Assembly (NCBI GenBank): GCA_018241765.1
Contig: JAFEDD010000004.1
Location: 195,672-255,733, forward strand
From: Pseudomonadota bacterium
GTDB taxonomy: Bacteria > Pseudomonadota > Gammaproteobacteria > Burkholderiales > Casimicrobiaceae
Length of the DNA stretch: 60,062 nt
Direction of reading: 5' to 3'
The notes below the pieces were generated by a model. That model ran no database searches and was not told the DNA's origin. It saw only the letters and a program-made list of their open reading frames with translations. The position numbers were made by a program, and so were the translations under genes. Shown here piece by piece: positions 9,026-17,727 of this stretch. The stretch's first letter is position 1, and each line of letters opens with the position of its first letter.

Positions 9026-9976
9026 ATGCGTGTCGCACAGCGCTCCCCCGACGACGACCACGAGTCGCCGGTTCCGTTCGCCGAGCGCGCTGCGGCTGCG
9101 TCGCGTTCGACCTGGATCAGCGTGTGGGTCAACGTCACGCTGTGCACGGTGCAGATCGTCGTCGGGGTGTTCGCCCGCTCGCAGGCGCTGATCGCCGACG
9201 GGCTGCATTCGCTGTCCGATCTGATCAGCGATTTCGTCGTGCTGGGTGCGAACCGCATCAGCGGCCGCAGCGCCGACGCCGCACACCCCTACGGCTATCT
9301 GCGGGTCGAAACCGCAGCTTCGCTCGTGCTCGGGTTGATTCTGCTCGCGGTCGGCGCCGGCATGCTGTGGTCGGCCGCGATGAAACTGGAAGACCCCTCC
9401 GCCGTCGCGCCCGTGCATGTCATCGCATTGTGCGTCGCGATCACGACGCTGGTGGCAAAGGAGGCGCTCTTTCGCTACATGCTCGCTGTCGCCAAGCGCG
9501 TCAAGTCGAGCATGCTGGTGGCCAACGCGTGGCATGCGCGCTCGGACGCTGCCTCATCGCTCGTGGTCAGCGTGGGCATCATCGGCAACCTGCTCGGCTT
9601 CCCGCTGCTCGACCCGATTGCGGCTGCGATCGTTGGTTTCATGGTCGCGCGGATGGGCTGGAGCTTCGGGTGGCAGGCGCTGCGCGATCTGATGGATCGT
9701 GCGGCCGACGAAGTGGAGATCGCCGCCATCCGCGCCACCATCGCCGACACGCCGGGCGTTCGCGCGGTGCATGATCTGCGCACCCGAAAGACGGGCGACA
9801 TGATCATCGCCGATGCCCACATCGAGGTCGACGCCACACTCTCCGTGGAGGCGGGCCACGCCATCGCGGTGGCGGCGCGCAATCGGGTTCTGCAGCGCCA
9901 TCGCGTGCTGAACCTGATGACCCACATCGATCCCTGGAAGCGCCCCGACGGCGACCACGAGTCACCCCCGGCGTGA
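9026..9976 (+). CDS. Cation diffusion facilitator family metal exporter
   Basis: A 316-residue CDF protein of the FieF/MamM type that exports divalent metals (Zn, Fe, Mn or similar) from the cytoplasm. Membrane metal-site motifs are IADGLHSLSDL (56-66) and NAWHARSDA (about 168-176), the paired HxxxD/DxxxD pattern. A cytoplasmic C-terminal domain of about 90 residues follows the last helix. Metal specificity cannot be read securely. It follows prfC on the same strand and converges on the MFS exporter gene. Confidence 0.9.
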   Translation: MRVAQRSPDDDHESPVPFAERAAAASRSTWISVWVNVTLCTVQIVVGVFARSQALIADGLHSLSDLISDFVVLGANRISGRSADAAHPYGYLRVETAASLVLGLILLAVGAGMLWSAAMKLEDPSAVAPVHVIALCVAITTLVAKEALFRYMLAVAKRVKSSMLVANAWHARSDAASSLVVSVGIIGNLLGFPLLDPIAAAIVGFMVARMGWSFGWQALRDLMDRAADEVEIAAIRATIADTPGVRAVHDLRTRKTGDMIIADAHIEVDATLSVEAGHAIAVAARNRVLQRHRVLNLMTHIDPWKRPDGDHESPPA

Positions 9977-10016
9977 CCGTCCTGCGCCGAACGGGCACGG
10001 CGACTGCAACGCGCTC

Positions 10017-11453
10017 TCAGCTCACCTCGGTCGAACGATCGGCATCGTGCCGCGGCGGATCGTGGTCGGGAGCGAGTTGCCAGAACACCCACGTCGACGC
10101 CATCGTCAGCACGCCGATGCCGAAGAAGGCGCCGCGAAAGGTGTCCAGCGTGTGGGCGGCGCCCGAACCGAGCCATTGCTCGAAGGTCGCGAGCAGCGCG
10201 GCGGCGGCCGTCACGCCCAGACTCATCGAGAGCATCTGCACCATCGAGAGCATGCTGTTGCCGCTGCTCTCGCCACCGCCGTGCAAGTCCTTGAGCGTCA
10301 CCGTGTTCATCGCCGTGAACTGCAACGAGTTGACGGTACCAAACAGCGCCAGCTGAAGCAGACGCACGACGAGCGGCTGCTCCGCCGTGGTCAGCGCGAA
10401 GCTCGCGATCAGCGCGCCGAGCAACAGCGTGTTACCGACCAGCACCCGCCGATAACCGAGCCAGGTGATGAGTCGCGTCGCCACGCTCTTGACCGCCATC
10501 GCGGAGATCGCCACCGGCAGCATCATCATGCCCGCTTGCAGCGGTGAGTAGCCCAGCGCCACTTGCAGCAGAAGCGGTATCAGGTAGGGCATGGCGCCGC
10601 TGCCGATGCGTGCGAAGAGATTGCCGAGCAGGCCGACGCGAAAGCTCTGCGTGGCAAATAGCGTCGGAGAAAACAGCGGCGCCGGATCGCGCAGCGCATG
10701 CAGCCAGTACGCGCTCAGCGCAGCCAGCCCCACCACCAGCAGCAGCACCACCGTCGTCTGTTGCAGCGCGAGGCCCGACATCGCATCGAAGGCAAGCGAG
10801 ATGGTCACCATGCCGGTCGCCAGCAGGAAGTAGCCGCCGAGATCGAAGCGGCCGACGGTTGCAACGCGCCCGTCCGGCATCAGGTAGACGGTCGCGATGG
10901 CACCGACGACGCCGACCGGAAGATTGATGAGGAAGATCCAGTGCCACGACAGTGTCTGCACGATCCACCCTCCCAACGTCGGCCCCAGCAACGGCCCGAC
11001 GAGACCGGGAATGGCGACGAAGCTCATCGCCTCCAGAAACTGCGCGCGCGGGAAGTGGCGCAACACGGCCAGCCGCCCGACCGGCAGCAGCAAGGCGCCG
11101 CCCGCACCCTGCACGACACGCGCCGCCGCCAGCTGGTGCAGATTGCCCGCCGCGGCGCAGGCGGCCGAACCCGCAGTGAACAGGACGATGGCGCCAAGGA
11201 ACACGCGGCGCGTGCCGAAACGATCAGCAAGCCAACCCGAGCAGGGGATGATCATCGCCATCGTCAACGCATAGGCGATCACCACCGCCTGCATGCGCAG
11301 CGGGCTCTCCCCCAGGCTCAAGGCCATGCTCGGCAGCGCCGTGTTGACGATCGTCGCGTCCAGCGTCTGCATGAAGAAACCGATGGCGACGAGCCAGAGC
11401 AGACGTCGATTCGGGAACGAGGCCGGTTGACCCGGAGAAGAGGCAGAAGACAT
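10017..11453 (-). CDS. MFS multidrug exporter, DHA2 (EmrB/QacA, MdtD-like) family
   Basis: A 478-residue drug:H+ antiporter with about 14 predicted membrane helices. LDATIVNTALPSMA near residues 31-44 is the DHA2 motif D1, and SGWLADRFGTRRVFL is the loop 2-3 motif A. Length and the HGGGESSGNSMLSM stretch resemble MdtD. The start is ATG 11453; the frame is open further upstream but without a membrane-compatible extension. No TetR/MarR regulator or membrane fusion protein is next to it, so the substrate is unknown. Confidence 0.88.
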   Translation of the reverse strand: MSSASSPGQPASFPNRRLLWLVAIGFFMQTLDATIVNTALPSMALSLGESPLRMQAVVIAYALTMAMIIPCSGWLADRFGTRRVFLGAIVLFTAGSAACAAAGNLHQLAAARVVQGAGGALLLPVGRLAVLRHFPRAQFLEAMSFVAIPGLVGPLLGPTLGGWIVQTLSWHWIFLINLPVGVVGAIATVYLMPDGRVATVGRFDLGGYFLLATGMVTISLAFDAMSGLALQQTTVVLLLVVGLAALSAYWLHALRDPAPLFSPTLFATQSFRVGLLGNLFARIGSGAMPYLIPLLLQVALGYSPLQAGMMMLPVAISAMAVKSVATRLITWLGYRRVLVGNTLLLGALIASFALTTAEQPLVVRLLQLALFGTVNSLQFTAMNTVTLKDLHGGGESSGNSMLSMVQMLSMSLGVTAAAALLATFEQWLGSGAAHTLDTFRGAFFGIGVLTMASTWVFWQLAPDHDPPRHDADRSTEVS

Positions 11454-11829
11454 GAGAGCGATGACAGGACGGCATGCGGAGCATAGCGGCCCGACTGCGG
11501 AAGCGGCGCCTGAGCGTTGCATCGGACGACCTACCTACTTCGGCACCCATCCGCCCGAAAATCCAGCGGGATACCAGCGTGCCGGCCAGTTTCCGTTCCC
11601 GCCTTGGCGCGGTGTGTTGCCTGACTCTCGATCAGCGATCGCCACGATACTGGGCGGGCGCCGCCCTCACACGCCCATCGTGCGACGCCGTGGCGAGCGC
11701 GAGCGACCGATACGCGGCGCCGGGCAAGTCACGCGTCAAGCGCTACGGATACAACGTTTCTCGTCTCGTCGCGTCATGATGTGCGAGCGGGCGTTGACGC
11801 CACGAATCACCCGCTTCGTGCACGCCCAA
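11454..11829. other. Intergenic region between collagen-like and MFS genes
   Basis: No credible gene is seen in these 376 bp, which lie downstream of the collagen-like gene and upstream of the MFS gene, both on the minus strand. A perfect 6-bp stem CACGAA/TTCGTG (11801-11806, 11815-11820) follows the collagen-like stop but has no U-run, so it is only a weak terminator candidate. The MFS promoter must lie in the right-hand part by position; I could not define it. Confidence 0.5.
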
Positions 11830-12639
11830 TCACTGGGCGCAAAGAACCGTCACCACCAGCGACCAACCCGCTGTCGTACCGCCTGATTGCGCGGTCTGCG
11901 CTGTGGCCGTCCATTGCGTTGCTGACGAGGGATAGCTTGCCGTCAGCGCGATCAGATCCGTCGCTGGCGCGCCATTGACGATGCGGGCTCCACCGCCAAT
12001 GGCGGACCCCGCGCTGCAATTCACGGTCTGGGTCTTCGGCGTAGCCCCGTCGCCTGCTGCCACCGAGAGGGTTGCCGACACGGTGGTCAGCGTGCCGATG
12101 CCACCGGATGTGCCGGCAGGGCCCTGGGGGCCGGCCGGGCCCTGGGGGCCGGTCGCGCCTGCGGTGCCGGCCGGGCCTTGCGGGCCGGTCGCTCCTTGCG
12201 CGCCCGCCGCTCCAGCGGGACCTTGGGGCCCTGTCGCGCCGGTGGGACCCGTTGGCCCTGCGGGGCCCGGTGCGCCGAGGTCCCCCTTGTCGCCTTTATC
12301 ACCTTTGTCGCCTTTATCGCCTTTGGCACCCACTGGGCCTTGCGGGCCAGCGGGACCCTGCGCACCGTACGTTGCAGGGCATTTCGCCAACTGACCGTTG
12401 GTGTCAAAGCAGACGACGCCGGCGTTCGCCACGGCACTGGCCGGAAGTCCGGGGATGCGCACGTTGCCAGCGCTATCGGCGGTCAATACCGTCACGCTGC
12501 CGTCGGCGTTTCGAATGACGACACGACCGCCGGCTGGTGGCATGATTTCGACATCCGCAGCTTGTGCAACGGCGCATTGCACGCCCAGCATCGCAACGAG
12601 CAGCGGTGTGAAGCGGAGGGACTTGGGCGAGATAGACAT
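11830..12639 (-). CDS. Exported collagen-like (Gly-X-Y repeat) protein
   Basis: A 269-residue protein with a signal peptide (cleavage likely after AQA, residue 27). Residues 92-178 are 29 uninterrupted Gly-X-Y triplets, including a run of GDK units and many GPQ/GPA units, which should form a collagen triple helix. The flanks are a short N-terminal beta-rich head and a C-terminal domain (about 180-269) with two Cys. The DNA of the repeat is locally repetitive, which allows length changes by slippage. It starts 4 bp after the stop of the IPTL-like gene, so the two are surely co-transcribed. Likely a surface or secreted fibre; its partner is unknown. Confidence 0.85.
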
Positions 12640-12643
12640 GCGT

Positions 12644-13396
12644 CTATTTCCTTTCTTTGAGAAATGGGCGGCGCGCGGTACGCAGCATCAGCCCTGTGCA
12701 TCCGAGGGCCAGCATCAGAACGAACAGCAATCCACGTTCGAGCGTTGGGACCACCGGAACCCCGAACCAGCGGTACACGTTGTCGTTGCTGCCAACGTAG
12801 AGGTTGGTCAACCCCAGCGCCAACCATTCGCCGGTGGCTCGCATGTCGTGAACGGCCAGCATGCTCATCCGCTGCACACCGTCGAGATGGACATTGCCCT
12901 GTTGGCCCGGCACGGTAGAGCCGATCTGCAACGGTGCGGACGCCGTGCCCTGGAGCGTGAGCGTGCGGATGACGCGCTGCGTGCTTCCGGCCTCGAACTG
13001 ATACGGCTTGCCGCTGCTGCTGACGATGCTCAGCGCAAAAAACGTGCTGCCGCCGCTGATCGTCGACGCGCTGGCGCAACCCGGGCCATCGACGAAGCTG
13101 ACACTACCGTTGCCCGGATCAAAAGCACCGCGGTTGCTCCAGTTTCCGGCCAGGGAAATGGTGGCAGCCCCACCCGCGAGGAGTTGCCCGCCGGCGCGAA
13201 TTTCAACATTGCGAACGCCTCGCAGCGCGCCGCCACCCAGATCGAAGACGCCCTCGACGATCACATCCGTACACCCGAGATCGGCAACGCCGCCGCCGAG
13301 CGACATGCGGTCGTCGGCGCCAACGACGATATTCGCGGCGGCGTTCAGGCTTGTGATCGCAAGAACGCCCGCGAGAAGTGCGGGGAGCGCACGCAT
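12644..13396 (-). CDS. Exported protein with IPTL-CTERM-like sorting tail
   Basis: About 250 residues: a signal peptide (first ~22), a beta-rich Gly/Ser/Val body suggestive of a beta-helix or adhesin-like domain with Cys residues, and a C-terminal tail with VPTLERG (216-222), a hydrophobic helix and a basic end (RTARR). This layout is that of the IPTL-CTERM putative sorting signal found in Gram-negative surface proteins. I use ATG 13396; a TTG at 13402 overlaps the stop of the preceding gene (TTGA) and would allow translational coupling. It sits tightly between a collar protein gene and the collagen-like gene. Confidence 0.72.
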
Positions 13397-13398
13397 CG

Positions 13399-13920
13399 TC
13401 AATCCCGGGAAGGGAAGATGCCCGTCAGCGCGATCGCATAGTTGACCACGAGATACGGTTGCATGTTGTTGTGCGCCTGCCCGCCGCCTGAGGTGACGAC
13501 CGCCGATGGGGCGAGCGTCGCATTGGCGGTGGTTGCATAGTTGTTGGTGCCCCGCGTCGAGGACTGAGCGAGCACATTGCCTGCCGGCGACGCATGATCG
13601 CCAACCGATGACGATGCGTTGATTGCGTGACTGTGCATCGGCATTTCGTTGGTGGTGAGCGTGTGCGCTTCTTCGCCCGCCGATTCACCCATGACGCGAC
13701 TGCTCAAACCCTGGCCCTGCCCCTGATGGATCGGCACGCGGCCGCGCAGATCAGGGAGACGGAAGTTGGTGGTTCCGTTGCCGCCAAATTGTGTGCCTAG
13801 AAGCGCGAAAAGCGCGCTGTTCTGCGCGATGGGCAACGTCTGTCCGTCGCAGTTGGCGTAGCCACGCGGCGCGAAGTTGAATCCGGTAGTGATGATCTGG
13901 CCGAGGAATGGTTCCGACAT
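13399..13920 (-). CDS. Tail-collar domain protein (MdpB-like), second copy
   Basis: A 173-residue protein with a phage tail-collar fold (PF07484-like): GQIITTGFNFAPRG at the N-terminus, LPDLRGRVPIHQGQGQGLS in the middle, MHSHAI, and the terminal IALTGIFPSRD. Such proteins occur widely as stand-alone bacterial genes (microcystin-dependent protein MdpB type) as well as in phage tails. It aligns without gaps over its whole length with the 173-residue upstream neighbour, with roughly half the residues identical, so the two arose by tandem duplication. No signal peptide is seen. No other phage structural gene is near. Confidence 0.85.
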   Translation of the reverse strand: MSEPFLGQIITTGFNFAPRGYANCDGQTLPIAQNSALFALLGTQFGGNGTTNFRLPDLRGRVPIHQGQGQGLSSRVMGESAGEEAHTLTTNEMPMHSHAINASSSVGDHASPAGNVLAQSSTRGTNNYATTANATLAPSAVVTSGGGQAHNNMQPYLVVNYAIALTGIFPSRD

Positions 13921-13936
13921 GAGGAGGTCCGTTTGT

Positions 13937-14458
13937 CTAGTTGCGCGGCGGGAAAAGGCCTTCGAGCGCGATGATGAAGTTGACGGTAGCTGACGGTTGC
14001 GTGTTCGCGTGCGGTTGACTGCCCCCCACCGCTTGCAGCGAACCGAGGGCCAGCGTGACATTCGCCGTCGCGGCAAAGTCGTTGGCGCCGCGCAGCGAGG
14101 CTGCCGCGAGCACACCACCGGCCGGCCCGGCTTGCGTGCCCGCGGATGTGCTCGCCGCGATCGAATGGCTGTGTAGTGGGATTTGTTGGGTGAGCAACGT
14201 CACCGTCTCGGTGCCGCTCTTTTCACCCATGACGCGGTTGGTCAACCCCTGACCCGTTCCTTGATGCACTGCCGCACGTCCGCGCAGATCCGGGACGGCG
14301 AATGTCTGCTGGCCGTCGCCCCCGTAGATGGTTCCGATCAACGCAAACAGCGCGCTGTAGTTCGATATCGGAAGCAACTGGCCGTGGCAAAGCGCCCACC
14401 CGCGCGGAGCAAAATTGAACCCGACCGCAACGATTTGACCCACATAGGGCTCAGCCAT
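13937..14458 (-). CDS. Tail-collar domain protein (MdpB-like), first copy
   Basis: A 173-residue tail-collar protein: GQIVAVGFNFAPRGWALC, YGGDGQQTFAVPDLRGR, HQGTGQGLTNRVMGE, LHSHSI and a terminal IALEGLFPPRN. A good ribosome site (AGGAG) precedes ATG 14458. The second collar gene begins 16 bp after its stop, in the same direction. Ligand, location and export route are unknown, since neither copy has a signal peptide. The lack of tail, capsid or lysis genes argues against a prophage remnant. Confidence 0.86.
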   Translation of the reverse strand: MAEPYVGQIVAVGFNFAPRGWALCHGQLLPISNYSALFALIGTIYGGDGQQTFAVPDLRGRAAVHQGTGQGLTNRVMGEKSGTETVTLLTQQIPLHSHSIAASTSAGTQAGPAGGVLAAASLRGANDFAATANVTLALGSLQAVGGSQPHANTQPSATVNFIIALEGLFPPRN

Positions 14459-14578
14459 GAGATTCTCCTGCTCGCAGAAATCCGAACCTGAGCCTCGGAG
14501 TTGCTTGTGTGAAGGGTTGCGACGACACGCATCGCTTCCCGCGGGGGCCGCATCGGCGGCCGACAGCGATCCTCATGC

Positions 14579-15703
14579 TCAGGCGCCGTAGGGTGAAAGC
14601 CAACCGGCTGCGCCCGCGCCTGGCCCGTGCAAACCGTTCGACAGCGCGGGGTGGTGCCAGCCACTGCCATCCAGTGGCGCCCAAAACGACGGCGTCTCGC
14701 GGCGGAGCGTCGCCCACGTCGGTCGAGGCAGCCCGCTCGCGACTTGCGCCGCGGATCGTCCGGCCTGTGCGGCCATCGAGTCGGTCGAGATCGTCGAACG
14801 CGTTGTTCCGACGTCGATCATCCGCGGTTGATACAGTGAGACCGCGCTCGATTCAGAAGACGCGAGACGCGGTGCGTCGCTGTCGCCGACGAGAGCAGCA
14901 AGCGCGCGTCCTTTCCAGCGATTGGCGCGCGATACCCAGAACGTGTGAAACCCTTCGATCTCGTGCGCCGAATGCAGGGACATGACGACATCCGGCGCAG
15001 CGCCTTGAACGGTGGTGTTCGCGCGCAACCATCCGGCGTCACCAGCCGACAGGTCAGGCGTGCCGGTGACGACGATCTCGTGCCGCTGCCCACCGCCGGC
15101 GCGGAACCCGCGCAGCGTGGCGTGCACGAGATCGAAGCCGCTTTCATAGTAGCCCGCGACCACAAGCATCGAACGCGCACCTCGGCGTGCCAAGTCATGT
15201 CCGGCAGCGAAGGCGTGTCGCCAGAGCTCCGGGCCGCAACGAACGACGTGCGCTTCGGCGCTCTTGCGCAGCGCCTTGGCCCCGAAGTCGGACAGCACCA
15301 GGCGGACACCATGGTCGGCAAGCGCGTGCTGATGTTCGAGGAGTTCGTTGCCGTCGCTCCAGGCCGCTACGAGACGCACCTCCTGCTGCAAGAGCGCGTT
15401 GACCGCCCCGCGTAGTTGGCTCGGTGTCGACGCGTGCTCGATCGCCATGGTGGGCGCAACACCTTGACGACGCAGTTCACTTTCGAACCCCTCCAGCCAT
15501 GCATGGCGAGCACCGGGAAACCGCTCACTCGCCGGCAGGATGACCCCGACACGCTCGTGGCCGCGCAAGGCGGTCGCACCGGCCCACGGCGAAACGCACA
15601 TCACGCTCGCGACCGCCGGGACGGCCATCAAGAAGGAGCGGCGCGGCGCGCAGTGCGATGTAGCACGCGCGCCTTCGCGCATGCGGCAAATGGTAGTCGT
15701 CAC
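14579..15703 (-). CDS. Exported periplasmic-binding-protein-like (type 1) protein
   Basis: A 374-residue protein. The N-terminus has APRRSFLMAVPAVASVM, a twin-arginine-like signal, with AGA as a possible cleavage site near 40-43. The rest resembles a type 1 periplasmic binding fold (as in amide/branched-chain amino acid binding proteins): VGVILPASERFPGARHAW, VRLVAAWSDGNELLEH, SMLVVAGYYESGFDLVHA. No ABC permease or ATPase gene is nearby, so a sensing role is as likely as transport. The start is GTG 15703, preceded by GAGGGA at a good distance. It is upstream of the collar genes with a 120-bp gap. Confidence 0.7.
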   Translation of the reverse strand: MTTTICRMREGARATSHCAPRRSFLMAVPAVASVMCVSPWAGATALRGHERVGVILPASERFPGARHAWLEGFESELRRQGVAPTMAIEHASTPSQLRGAVNALLQQEVRLVAAWSDGNELLEHQHALADHGVRLVLSDFGAKALRKSAEAHVVRCGPELWRHAFAAGHDLARRGARSMLVVAGYYESGFDLVHATLRGFRAGGGQRHEIVVTGTPDLSAGDAGWLRANTTVQGAAPDVVMSLHSAHEIEGFHTFWVSRANRWKGRALAALVGDSDAPRLASSESSAVSLYQPRMIDVGTTRSTISTDSMAAQAGRSAAQVASGLPRPTWATLRRETPSFWAPLDGSGWHHPALSNGLHGPGAGAAGWLSPYGA

Positions 15704-15819
15704 GAAAATCCCTCAACACACACACGCCCGGCGGCGAGCGCGAAGTCTAAACCAGAATTGATCTGAGTCAAGAGACTTTTCTGACGAAGAAAAGGTCACG
15801 CATCGCTTCGTCGGCCGGC

Positions 15820-16344
15820 TCAGACGCGGCTCGGGGGGTGCCAGACATAGTGACGAATCAACGCGTCGCCGCCGACGTGCATGAAACCCAGACGTTCGCA
15901 AAGGTGAGCGCTCGGGTTGCCGATCTCGACGTGCAGCGATACCCGTCGTTCGTCCTCGGCGGCCCAACGAAGGACCTCGCGCACGATGGCGGTACCGAGC
16001 CCGCCGCCCCGCAGCTCACGCTTCAGGGTCATCTCCATGAGGATGTCCTCGGGCTCCGTTCGCAGCCGCGCCCAATACAGCCGTCCGATCACCTGCGCGG
16101 CGATGGGCGTCCCGTCGCGATCGGCGACTCGCTCGATCATCCAGTACACGGCGGTCGGGTAGTGGCTACGGTAGTGCGAATGCTGCGCTTGGTATTGCAG
16201 GTCACAAAACACGGCCTTCTCAGCGTCCGTCCACGGTGTCATCGCAAGTTCGCGCTCCCGCGAACTCGCATACAACGCACCAAGTGCGGGTTCGTCGCTG
16301 GCGTCGGCGACGCGAAGGCGGAGGCCGGGAATGCTCAGTTGCAT
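15820..16344 (-). CDS. GNAT family N-acetyltransferase
   Basis: A 174-residue acetyltransferase. The acetyl-CoA pyrophosphate loop is RGGGLGTAIVREVL, preceded by the beta-4 strand EDILMEMTLKREL and followed by VSLHVEIGNPSAHLCERLGF, the usual end of the fold. I use ATG 16344; the frame is open further upstream, but the GNAT domain begins with LRLRVADASDEPAL just after this Met. It starts 25 bp after the stop of the DUF6916-like gene and probably shares its transcript. The substrate is unknown; modification of a neighbouring secreted protein is only a guess. Confidence 0.82.
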   Translation of the reverse strand: MQLSIPGLRLRVADASDEPALGALYASSRERELAMTPWTDAEKAVFCDLQYQAQHSHYRSHYPTAVYWMIERVADRDGTPIAAQVIGRLYWARLRTEPEDILMEMTLKRELRGGGLGTAIVREVLRWAAEDERRVSLHVEIGNPSAHLCERLGFMHVGGDALIRHYVWHPPSRV

Positions 16345-16369
16345 GGGCGTTGGCGTCAGCGGTGGCGCA

Positions 16370-16813
16370 TTACCGTTCGTTGGCGAAACCATCCGAGGCG
16401 TGAGGCGACGAACCATCGCCAACCGCTTCACGGACGATGCATGCTTCGTACCGCATCTGCTGCTCCGCATCGCGACCGACGGGAACGAGGAAAACCTCGG
16501 AGACCCCGAAGCGCTCACTCTGGATCGCGTAGCTTCCTTGCGCCAGGTCAGGCGCTTGGGGCCCCACGAACAGCGCGGCGAACTGCTCGTAGTTCGGTGG
16601 CGAAGGTTTTCGTGTCAGCGTCGCCAGCTTCAGGAAAACAACGTGCTCGGCGCCATCGTGTCCGAACGCCGTGACCTCGAAGCGATCGCCGAGTGCCGCA
16701 TCGAAGCGTGCATACGAAAAATCGTTGTCGCTGGTGCCGGCATGCATGGTGAGTTGAAATGCGGGTAACGAGAGGCGTTTCGTGGTCTGAGCCGCGCAGT
16801 GTAATGTCGGCAT
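16370..16813 (-). CDS. DUF6916-like small protein
   Basis: About 147 residues. The core has FDAALGDRFEV, then a beta-rich middle and the closing pattern FVGPQAPDLAQGSYAIQ ... VSEVFLVPVGRDAEQQMRYE. This resembles the DUF6916 family, whose members end with a FLVPVGRD-x-x-G-x-RYEA type motif; recalled from the motif, not checked. The start is uncertain: ATG 16813 is used, ATG 16747 is possible, and neither has a strong ribosome site. It lies directly upstream of the GNAT gene on the same strand, in the same block as the collar proteins. Confidence 0.62.
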   Translation of the reverse strand: MPTLHCAAQTTKRLSLPAFQLTMHAGTSDNDFSYARFDAALGDRFEVTAFGHDGAEHVVFLKLATLTRKPSPPNYEQFAALFVGPQAPDLAQGSYAIQSERFGVSEVFLVPVGRDAEQQMRYEACIVREAVGDGSSPHASDGFANER

Positions 16814-16956
16814 GTCGAATCGGCTCAGTGTCGCGCGCGCCCTCATCCCGCAAGTCGCGTCGATCCGGGTCGGTGGCTCGCCGTGGAACACGACTTCGGG
16901 CGATGATCGAACCAGCCCAAGCCCATCGCGCGAACCACACCCAACGGAGAGCCCTC

Positions 16957-17727
16957 TTGAACAAGCCATTCAGCCAATCGTCAAAGGAGCAGATCGAGGC
17001 ATACGTGTACGCCCTGGTCGATCCGCGCAACCGACGAATTTTCTACATTGGAAAGGGCAGGGCGAACAATCGTGCGTTCAGTCATCTGGCGCCGAGTGGC
17101 AGCGATCGACGAAAACAGCAATTGATCAAGGAGATTCGAGAGGCAGGGCTCGAACCTCGAGTGGAAATTCTTCGCCACGGGCTGTCGGTCCCGGTCGCCC
17201 ACGAAGTCGAGGCATCGCTCATCGACGCCATTGGCATCGAGAACCTCACGAATGAAGTGCGAGGACACGGCACTGCGCGTGGCCGAGTTTCGGCGACGGA
17301 CTTCGAACGCGTCCACGGCGCGCAGCCGGTGGCCATCACCGAACTCAGGGAGCGGTACATGCTGTTCTTCGTCAACCAGTCATTTTCAGCGTCCGCCAGC
17401 GAGGTGGAAATCTACGACAGTGTTCGGCAGTTTTGGCACAACGTTGCGGAAAGGACTCGAACTCCCGGCCCCGATGGTGCCCTGCCCTACCCAACGGCGC
17501 TGGCTCTGGTCGAGAGCGTCGTTGTACGCGCGTACACCATCCTGCAGTGGTATCGAGCAGGGGCGACGATGTCGACCAGGCGCTACGTCGATGGCGACGC
17601 TGCACGGCCCAAGTATGAATTCATCGGACAACTGCTTCCTGAACACGAATTGCTTGGCAAGCAGTTGGTGGATGCCGGTGGCGAGAAAATTCGTCACTCC
17701 CAGAAAGGGTACGGCTACATCAATTGA
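16957..17727 (+). CDS. GIY-YIG domain protein (LEM-3-like nuclease family)
   Basis: About 256 residues. The N-terminus VYALVDPRNRRIFYIGKG is a GIY-YIG nuclease motif of the type seen in LEM-3/COG3680 proteins; later come conserved Arg, His and Glu (HEVEASLIDAIG). The second half, with VRQFWHNVAERTR and VESVVVRAYTILQWY, looks like the SfsA-unrelated C-terminal domain of that group and has no clear catalytic motif. I start at TTG 16957 because GGAG lies 7 bp before it; ATG 16903 is the alternative. Base composition is slightly more AT-rich than the flanks. It diverges from the DUF6916-like gene and is probably a single transcription unit. Confidence 0.72.
   Translation: MNKPFSQSSKEQIEAYVYALVDPRNRRIFYIGKGRANNRAFSHLAPSGSDRRKQQLIKEIREAGLEPRVEILRHGLSVPVAHEVEASLIDAIGIENLTNEVRGHGTARGRVSATDFERVHGAQPVAITELRERYMLFFVNQSFSASASEVEIYDSVRQFWHNVAERTRTPGPDGALPYPTALALVESVVVRAYTILQWYRAGATMSTRRYVDGDAARPKYEFIGQLLPEHELLGKQLVDAGGEKIRHSQKGYGYIN

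Follow-up and report, generated by a model that had tools for sequence, protein, structure and literature searches.

Do tail-collar genes in a bacterial genome mark the remains of a virus, or can they belong to a structure of the bacterium itself? This question is raised by a 60,062-nucleotide stretch of Burkholderiales DNA (GenBank assembly GCA_018241765.1, contig JAFEDD010000004.1), hereafter called the window, in which seven consecutive genes on the minus strand run from position 16813 down to 11830. In the order of transcription they encode a DUF6916 protein, a GNAT acetyltransferase, a binding-protein-like protein, two tail-collar proteins (collars A and B), an IPTL-like protein and a collagen-like protein, with intergenic distances of 25, 116, 120, 16, 2 and 4 bp. 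A preliminary description made from the sequence alone had given these genes and gaps, and the layout, the positions and the families (by Pfam) were borne out. It had also interpreted the block as a surface or secreted assembly, and this interpretation as a whole is partly supported by the results described below. Close relatives of the core of the block recur in many bacteria, apparently as a cell-surface structure and not as a broken virus.

A conserved neighbourhood of collars, GNAT and DUF6916

Two genes of the block proved to be frequent companions of collars in other genomes. The first gene (16370..16813, minus strand) codes for a DUF6916 protein of 147 aa (Pfam PF21880, 1.6e-19), and the second (15820..16344, minus strand) for a GNAT acetyltransferase of a subfamily that accompanies collars (Pfam Acetyltransf_1, 5e-9). 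Within the host family, DUF6916 was detected in 19 of 64 genomes and a collar in 19 of 64, and these are the same 19 genomes. In a sample of the order, DUF6916 is present in 26 and collars in 79 of 399 genomes; both occur in 24 of the 26, against 5.1 expected, with P values near 1e-16 that ignore the relatedness of the genomes. Both DUF6916 genomes without a collar call, G183 and G223, are incomplete; a piece of a collar lies at a contig edge in G223 (L106). Collars without DUF6916 are common (55 of the 79 collar genomes of the order sample), and some of these are probably phage genes.

To describe the surroundings of DUF6916 we mapped 42 loci picked by this family, the window included. A GNAT of one subfamily is present in 40 of them and collars are also present in 40; the two collar-less loci (L032 and L105) lie on short contigs, and in L024, L025 and L105 the GNAT gene is located 4 to 8 kb from DUF6916. 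A sample of the phylum, in which 36 of 299 genomes contain DUF6916, provided 29 further loci besides the window, fetched from 40 match places (two of them, L123 and L131, come from genomes already present in the order sample). Here, a collar lies within 1.5 kb of DUF6916 in 25 of the 29 loci, a GNAT in 22, and either of the two in 27. The same neighbours recur in dozens of genomes, and this recurrence is more than chance. These data show that collars, GNAT and DUF6916 constitute a conserved bacterial neighbourhood, which in most cases comprises three collar paralogues and one giant adhesin-like protein. As an association, the proposed role of GNAT and DUF6916 as accessory factors is well supported.

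The giant partner was recognized as an open reading frame (ORF) of at least 600 codons that is rich in S, T, G, N, V, A and D and poor in Arg. In 43 of 54 loci such an adhesin-like ORF is found no more than 3.5 kb from the collars. Of the 11 loci without a call, two from Deinococcus (L109 and L113) encode a protein of about 900 aa that escaped the filter. Three giants, from L024, L025 and L034, were scanned and contain cadherin, Ig, Calx-beta or fn3 repeats. The giant collar partners in L165 and L166 carry an IPTL-like motif and membrane segments near the N-terminus, ahead of the repeat body.

The neighbourhood extends to other phyla. Seventy-three plasmid records contain a collar match at E 0.01, and we opened 14 plasmid loci, ten by way of the collar and four by way of DUF6916, from Rhizobium, Comamonas, Pontibrevibacter, Ruegeria, Aliiroseovarius, Azospirillum, Deinococcus (five), Paenibacillus, Spirosoma and Hymenobacter. 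Twelve of the 14 loci have three collars by profile. Three-collar loci occur in Pseudomonadota, Deinococcota, Bacillota and Bacteroidota, and in the first three of these phyla they come with a GNAT; the Paenibacillus locus, for example, combines a GNAT, three collars and an Ig-like giant. Two additional weak collar matches, from Rhizobium leguminosarum and Sinorhizobium medicae, are without GNAT or DUF6916 nearby. In Deinococcus QL22 (L114:10989-13583) and Azospirillum TSH100 (L120:5900-16291), genes annotated as lasso-peptide-type B2 protein, PqqD or asparagine-synthase-related stand beside the collar triplets.

What the two accessory proteins may do was approached by structure prediction and comparison. 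DUF6916 is predicted to be a small six-stranded beta barrel and an accessory of the collar module, with predicted local distance difference test (pLDDT) values by block of 81-92 over residues 31-130 of the model. Foldseek returned no match to this fold at E 0.001 in the PDB or among viral models. Looser matches are to many small barrels (MotI 8.1, MrkH 8.0, norovirus protease 8.0); since this arrangement is common it gives no function for DUF6916, and we rejected a functional assignment from the fold. Some DUF6916 proteins (L086, L087, L090, L093, L106 and L108) have a twin-arginine-type signal of their own, at times beside a signal-less second copy. The solved structures nearest to the GNAT include N-terminal acetyltransferases and also other enzymes, and in most cases the acetyl-CoA half alone aligns. 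Among 143 collar copies, residue 2 is A or S in 99, residue 3 is E, D or Q in 103 and residue 4 is P in 98. This conserved N-terminus is consistent with N-terminal acetylation, although it is not proof of it.

The collar triplet and its fused forms

The number of collars per locus suggests that they belong together in threes. Exactly three collars are encoded in 41 of the 54 loci, one in ten, two in two, and six in one. The HxH motif is present in 41/41, 41/41 and 40/41 of the collars at positions 1, 2 and 3 of the three-collar loci (122/123), the single miss being a truncated copy in L031. When 141 collars were placed in a tree, copies from the same position mostly grouped together, with 27 label changes where shuffling gave 76 on average, though support on many branches is only 80-95 and some rows are out of place.

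Three genomes from two families (G092, G340 and G293, two of them close kin) encode the three collars as a single polypeptide with a signal peptide, which we assigned by eye, three collar domains and a PEP-CTERM sorting signal (L249:7032-8576, L250:6777-8240 and L251:3553-5001). The order within these fusions is circularly permuted, in that the mature chain opens with the C-terminal strand of a collar, a strand that is lacking at the end of the third collar; in L251 the third strand escaped our motif pattern but can be seen in the sequence. A permuted chain of this composition suggests a closed three-fold unit outside the cytoplasm, and we read the fused triple collar as a ring that a single chain may close. 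The three fusion loci gave no profile match to GNAT or DUF6916, which fits a cytoplasmic role of both proteins on signal-less collars. The surface or secreted role that the preliminary description had assigned to the block gains support from these fusions, whereas the physical assembly of its products is something we can only infer.

The collagen-type variant in the window

The block of the window is a variant of this module: it has two collars and a LivJ-like protein of the twin-arginine translocation (TAT) type, and where the giant would stand it has a beta-rich protein of the exosortase type and a collagen-like protein. Collar A (13937..14458, minus strand) and collar B (13399..13920, minus strand), each of 173 aa, match Pfam PF07484 at 1e-27 and 2e-27, respectively (scores of 95 and 96 bits for the pair, cut-off 24), and collar B also matches Gp10_C (1e-6). 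Both contain the HxH motif after a conserved Pro, as PLHSH in collar A and PMHSH in collar B. A model of the collar B monomer is confident over the first 60 residues and poor over the remainder, which is what an intertwined trimer could give. This model matches the tail fibre of cyanophage A-1(L) (8kec) at 4.5e-4 and T4 gp12 (1ocy) at 1.9e-3.

The third gene (14579..15703, minus strand) codes for a LivJ-like periplasmic binding protein with the twin-arginine-type signal RRSFL and the C-terminal sequence GWLSPYGA. By itself the window protein stays under the Pfam cut-off (0.0047 for Peripla_BP_3). A three-sequence profile (A1) matched solved structures of the LivJ type at 1.1e-15, and the related protein of G003 is a Peripla_BP_6 protein at 2.4e-27. 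In an alignment (A4) of seven collar-associated binding proteins from Burkholderiales and Deinococcus, RR near the start and GW near the end are invariant. The GW..Y/F C-terminus is found in all seven of these proteins and in none of 28 ordinary relatives; ordinary binding-protein loci contain a collar, GNAT or DUF6916 within 1.5 kb in 0 of 29 cases. In Deinococcus the protein stands beside collars in three records by profile and in a fourth (QL22) by position and motif, without a profile match. In the tree of the family, the seven collar-associated proteins are all found on the same side of one branch; because the branches are saturated and long ones meet, we judged the association from the C-terminal motif and the position instead. 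A scan of genome contigs for the binding protein returned one locus, the G011 contig (JACMNN010000246.1), identical over the stretch compared.

The products of the last two genes begin with putative signal peptides, judged by eye. The sixth gene (12644..13396, minus strand) codes for a beta-rich IPTL-like protein. The sorting tail that had been proposed for it calls for a correction: the C-terminus reads VPTLERG followed by a membrane helix and basic residues, and neither Pfam nor NCBIfam gives a match to the IPTL-CTERM model, the VPTL tail being too divergent for these models. The counterpart in G011, 41% identical, scores 0.02 for IPTL-CTERM and is also under the cut-off. The window genome contains the exosortase XrtH (TIGR04177, 194 bits against a cut-off of 86, contig C27), which is present in nine of ten genomes checked, and three other IPTL-CTERM matches over the cut-off. 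With this counterpart and this exosortase at hand, the protein is probably sorted by XrtH. The seventh gene (11830..12639, minus strand) codes for the collagen-like protein (Pfam PF01391, 2.4e-14; 53 bits, cut-off 27), with a signal-like start, 31 uninterrupted Gly-X-Y triplets and a conserved C-terminal domain. It is 47% identical to its G011 counterpart and the sole gene of the window genome that is matched by the Collagen family, with two matches.

Neighbourhood searches showed that these genes do recur together, in G011 and in G003. The locus in G011 (L031), from the same genus as the window, contains genes for DUF6916, the binding protein, two collars, the IPTL-like and the collagen-like protein in that order, with an additional IPTL-like piece between the two collars; an APS kinase gene, a 3' collar remnant, a TAT-signal protein (F2) and a GNAT follow the collagen-like gene on the same contig. 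The locus in G003 (L028), from another genus, brings together the collagen-like protein, the binding protein, two collars, a GNAT and a convergent DUF6916 gene, and has no IPTL-like match. The collars of each pair are 80% (L028) and 79% (L031) identical and group with those of the window and mostly one-collar loci; judged by their sequences, these pairs are recent duplicates. A giant is found in none of the three collagen loci (window, L028 and L031; P = 0.007), which come from three related genomes.

TAT-like ORFs are enriched inside collar loci (32/2093 against 11/3242). As a general rule, the export of collars by hitch-hiking on a TAT substrate was rejected on a count that is given below. 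Divergent from the block lies a gene for a LEM-3-like GIY-YIG protein (16894-17727, plus strand), which also matches a PHROGs family of unknown function.

Proposed role of the block

The reading we prefer, and which we consider about evenly balanced between right and wrong, is that the block represents the collagen-type variant of a widespread bacterial collar module, in which the collar is the ligand-binding knob of a fibre that adheres or captures ligands. The collars would fold as HxH metal-centred trimers, composed of three different paralogues in three-collar loci and of two kinds or one kind in the window. They would reach the cell surface and serve there as the knob, while the shaft of the fibre would be the giant protein elsewhere and the collagen-like protein in the window. 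For the GNAT we propose a cytoplasmic action on the conserved collar N-terminus (M-[AS]-[EDQ]-P-[FY]), where it would probably serve as a dedicated N-terminal acetyltransferase; DUF6916 could be a helper in assembly or export. The binding protein might either present a small ligand or escort the folded signal-less collars through the TAT route. In this scheme we infer physical assembly, export and acetylation. The combination of a collagen stalk with a collar knob, already proposed in the preliminary description, receives indirect support from single chains of collagen and collar in phage-like contigs and from the replacement of the giant by collagen in all three collagen loci, yet IPTL-collagen pairs also exist without collars.

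A number of observations weigh against this reading. Collars A and B of the window are without an apparent signal peptide, and a TAT-like ORF that could assist collar export is present in only 30 of the 54 loci. In the tree of 141 collars the window collars lie outside the three-collar clades and group with mostly one-collar loci (support 91), so that the argument for a heterotrimer is not directly applicable to them; among one-collar loci the HxH motif is found in 7 of 10, and two of the misses are full-length. All seven families occur together only in the window and, with insertions, in G011, while G003 has six. Of the three collagen genomes, G003 gave no XrtH match. At the opened plasmid loci, profile matches to GNAT (9/14) and DUF6916 (6/14) are absent from 5 and 8 of the 14 loci, respectively, and in the Bacteroidota (Spirosoma and Hymenobacter) collars stand beside large proteins with neither GNAT nor DUF6916.

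More tentatively, and with the balance somewhat against it, we suggest that at least four phyla have domesticated a phage collar as a heterotrimeric surface head, built from three ancient paralogues or one permuted chain. This head would be mounted on an interchangeable shaft, either a giant beta-repeat protein or collagen, with cytoplasmic preparation by a dedicated N-terminal acetyltransferase in three of these phyla and often with the DUF6916 barrel. If true, this would be a surface organelle that is undescribed in the literature searched, and it would explain many COG4675 proteins.

Alternative explanations

The collars and the collagen-like protein match PHROGs tail families, and the block could be a degenerate prophage tail module in which the collar and collagen-like genes are left-over tail fibres. 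Within 20 window proteins scanned with PHROGs, from 2.4 to 24.7 kb, structural matches (tail, one head) are confined to the two collars and the collagen-like protein, with none outside the block. Collar B matches 221 of 50,697 phage records, all below 60% identity and at 37-40% in the 12 matches listed, whereas a bacterial plasmid record reaches 56% identity over the full length. DUF6916 (query from L023) has no match in the 50,697 phage records at E 0.01. Viral contigs gave no confirmed DUF6916 match either, but this search had a limited reach, as one viral contig (L171) contains DUF6916 beside a GNAT and collars. These genes lie next to an integrase-like gene, named by eye, and look like host DNA at a prophage edge. 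Neither GNAT nor DUF6916 is found at 78 of the best 80 of 532 viral-contig collar loci. Collagen repeats and a collar share one frame in seven of the best 80 viral collar loci, confirmed by Pfam for the three that were scanned. Several of the seven look like copies of one phage; these chains provide a precedent for a stalk and knob in one chain. One viral contig of 5.5 kb (L169) contains nine collar frames in a row. With the closest collars found being bacterial, the partners absent or nearly absent in the phage sets searched, and the module kept across families and phyla, we rejected a prophage remnant as very improbable. Neither of the two outcomes that would have refuted the preliminary interpretation, a lack of recurrence or clear homology to a degenerate prophage tail module, was obtained.

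Two other explanations leave the block bacterial and question its unity or its function. It may consist of two independent cassettes side by side, one with collars, GNAT, DUF6916 and binding protein, the other with an IPTL-like and a collagen-like protein that would form their own exosortase-sorted surface fibre, the two sharing a transcript or nothing. The collagen-like protein ends in a conserved domain of its own, and in 4 of 14 other collagen loci fetched (L154, L155, L159 and L160) an IPTL-like gene adjoins the collagen gene with no collars nearby, one of these genomes (G014) having no collar match at all; the pair may therefore be a chance neighbour or a mobile pair. This finding also counts against the collagen-type variant as one unit. 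However, the genes for collar B, the IPTL-like and the collagen-like protein follow each other at distances of just 2 and 4 bp, the order is kept in G011, and collagen occurs with the binding protein and collars in another genus (G003). The giant is also missing exactly where collagen is present, although in three related genomes only. On this evidence we regard separate cassettes as unlikely, though as a serious competitor. Improbable, in our view, is a ligand-sensing or uptake unit without any fibre, in which the LivJ-like protein would be the core and the collars a periplasmic scaffold or receptor. The recurrence of this binding-protein family with collars in Deinococcus, with the shared C-terminal GW motif, would fit such a unit, but most collar loci are without the protein (it is present in 3 of the 42 loci picked by DUF6916), and no ABC permease or ATPase gene was detected among the ten window proteins scanned, from 9026 to 17727.

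Comparison with known systems

Annotations call stand-alone bacterial collars "tail fiber" or "microcystin-dependent protein", and what they do is poorly understood. The finding that they belong to a conserved module outside phages, next to defined partners, and that a fused form bears export and sorting signals makes this role testable by way of trimer composition, surface location and N-terminal acetylation. It is also a warning for prophage-finding tools, since such loci should not count as tail remnants. In the open-licence literature searched we found no description of a multi-gene collar module; triple-collar PEP-CTERM fusions were not among the topics searched.

The family COG4675 is that of the "microcystin-dependent protein" MdpB. 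RhiB of the Rhizobium leguminosarum rhiABC operon carries a collar domain (PMC13133039) and belongs to COG4675 (PMC6969944), a LuxR-type regulator controls the operon, which is active in the rhizosphere (PMC5793154), and COG4675 proteins were detected in a soil metaproteome (PMC5579227). MdpB and RhiB resemble the window collars in being bacterial, non-phage tail-collar proteins. Unlike the window, an R. leguminosarum collar gene (L247), whose identity with rhiB is unproven, is without a match to GNAT or DUF6916 in a 10.3-kb stretch. The collar protein at this locus (L247:4728-5333) has an apparent Sec signal peptide.

Exosortase-sorted surface proteins (PEP-CTERM, IPTL-CTERM) are similar to the module with respect to the PEP-CTERM on the three fusions and the XrtH in the window genome, and different in that the tail of the window protein diverges too far for the models. 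The mosaic adhesive trimer fibres of Bdellovibrio are phage-fibre-like trimers on a bacterial surface; each is a single long fibre protein, and they are not known to come with a set of three collar paralogues, a GNAT or DUF6916. The T4 short tail fibre gp12 and the tail fibre of cyanophage A-1(L) share the collar fold and the HxH motif with collar B. In gp12 this motif binds a metal at the trimer axis, and in both fibres the collar is the end of a long fibre chain. The collar of the window, by contrast, is a stand-alone protein of 173 aa with a conserved N-terminus of its own.

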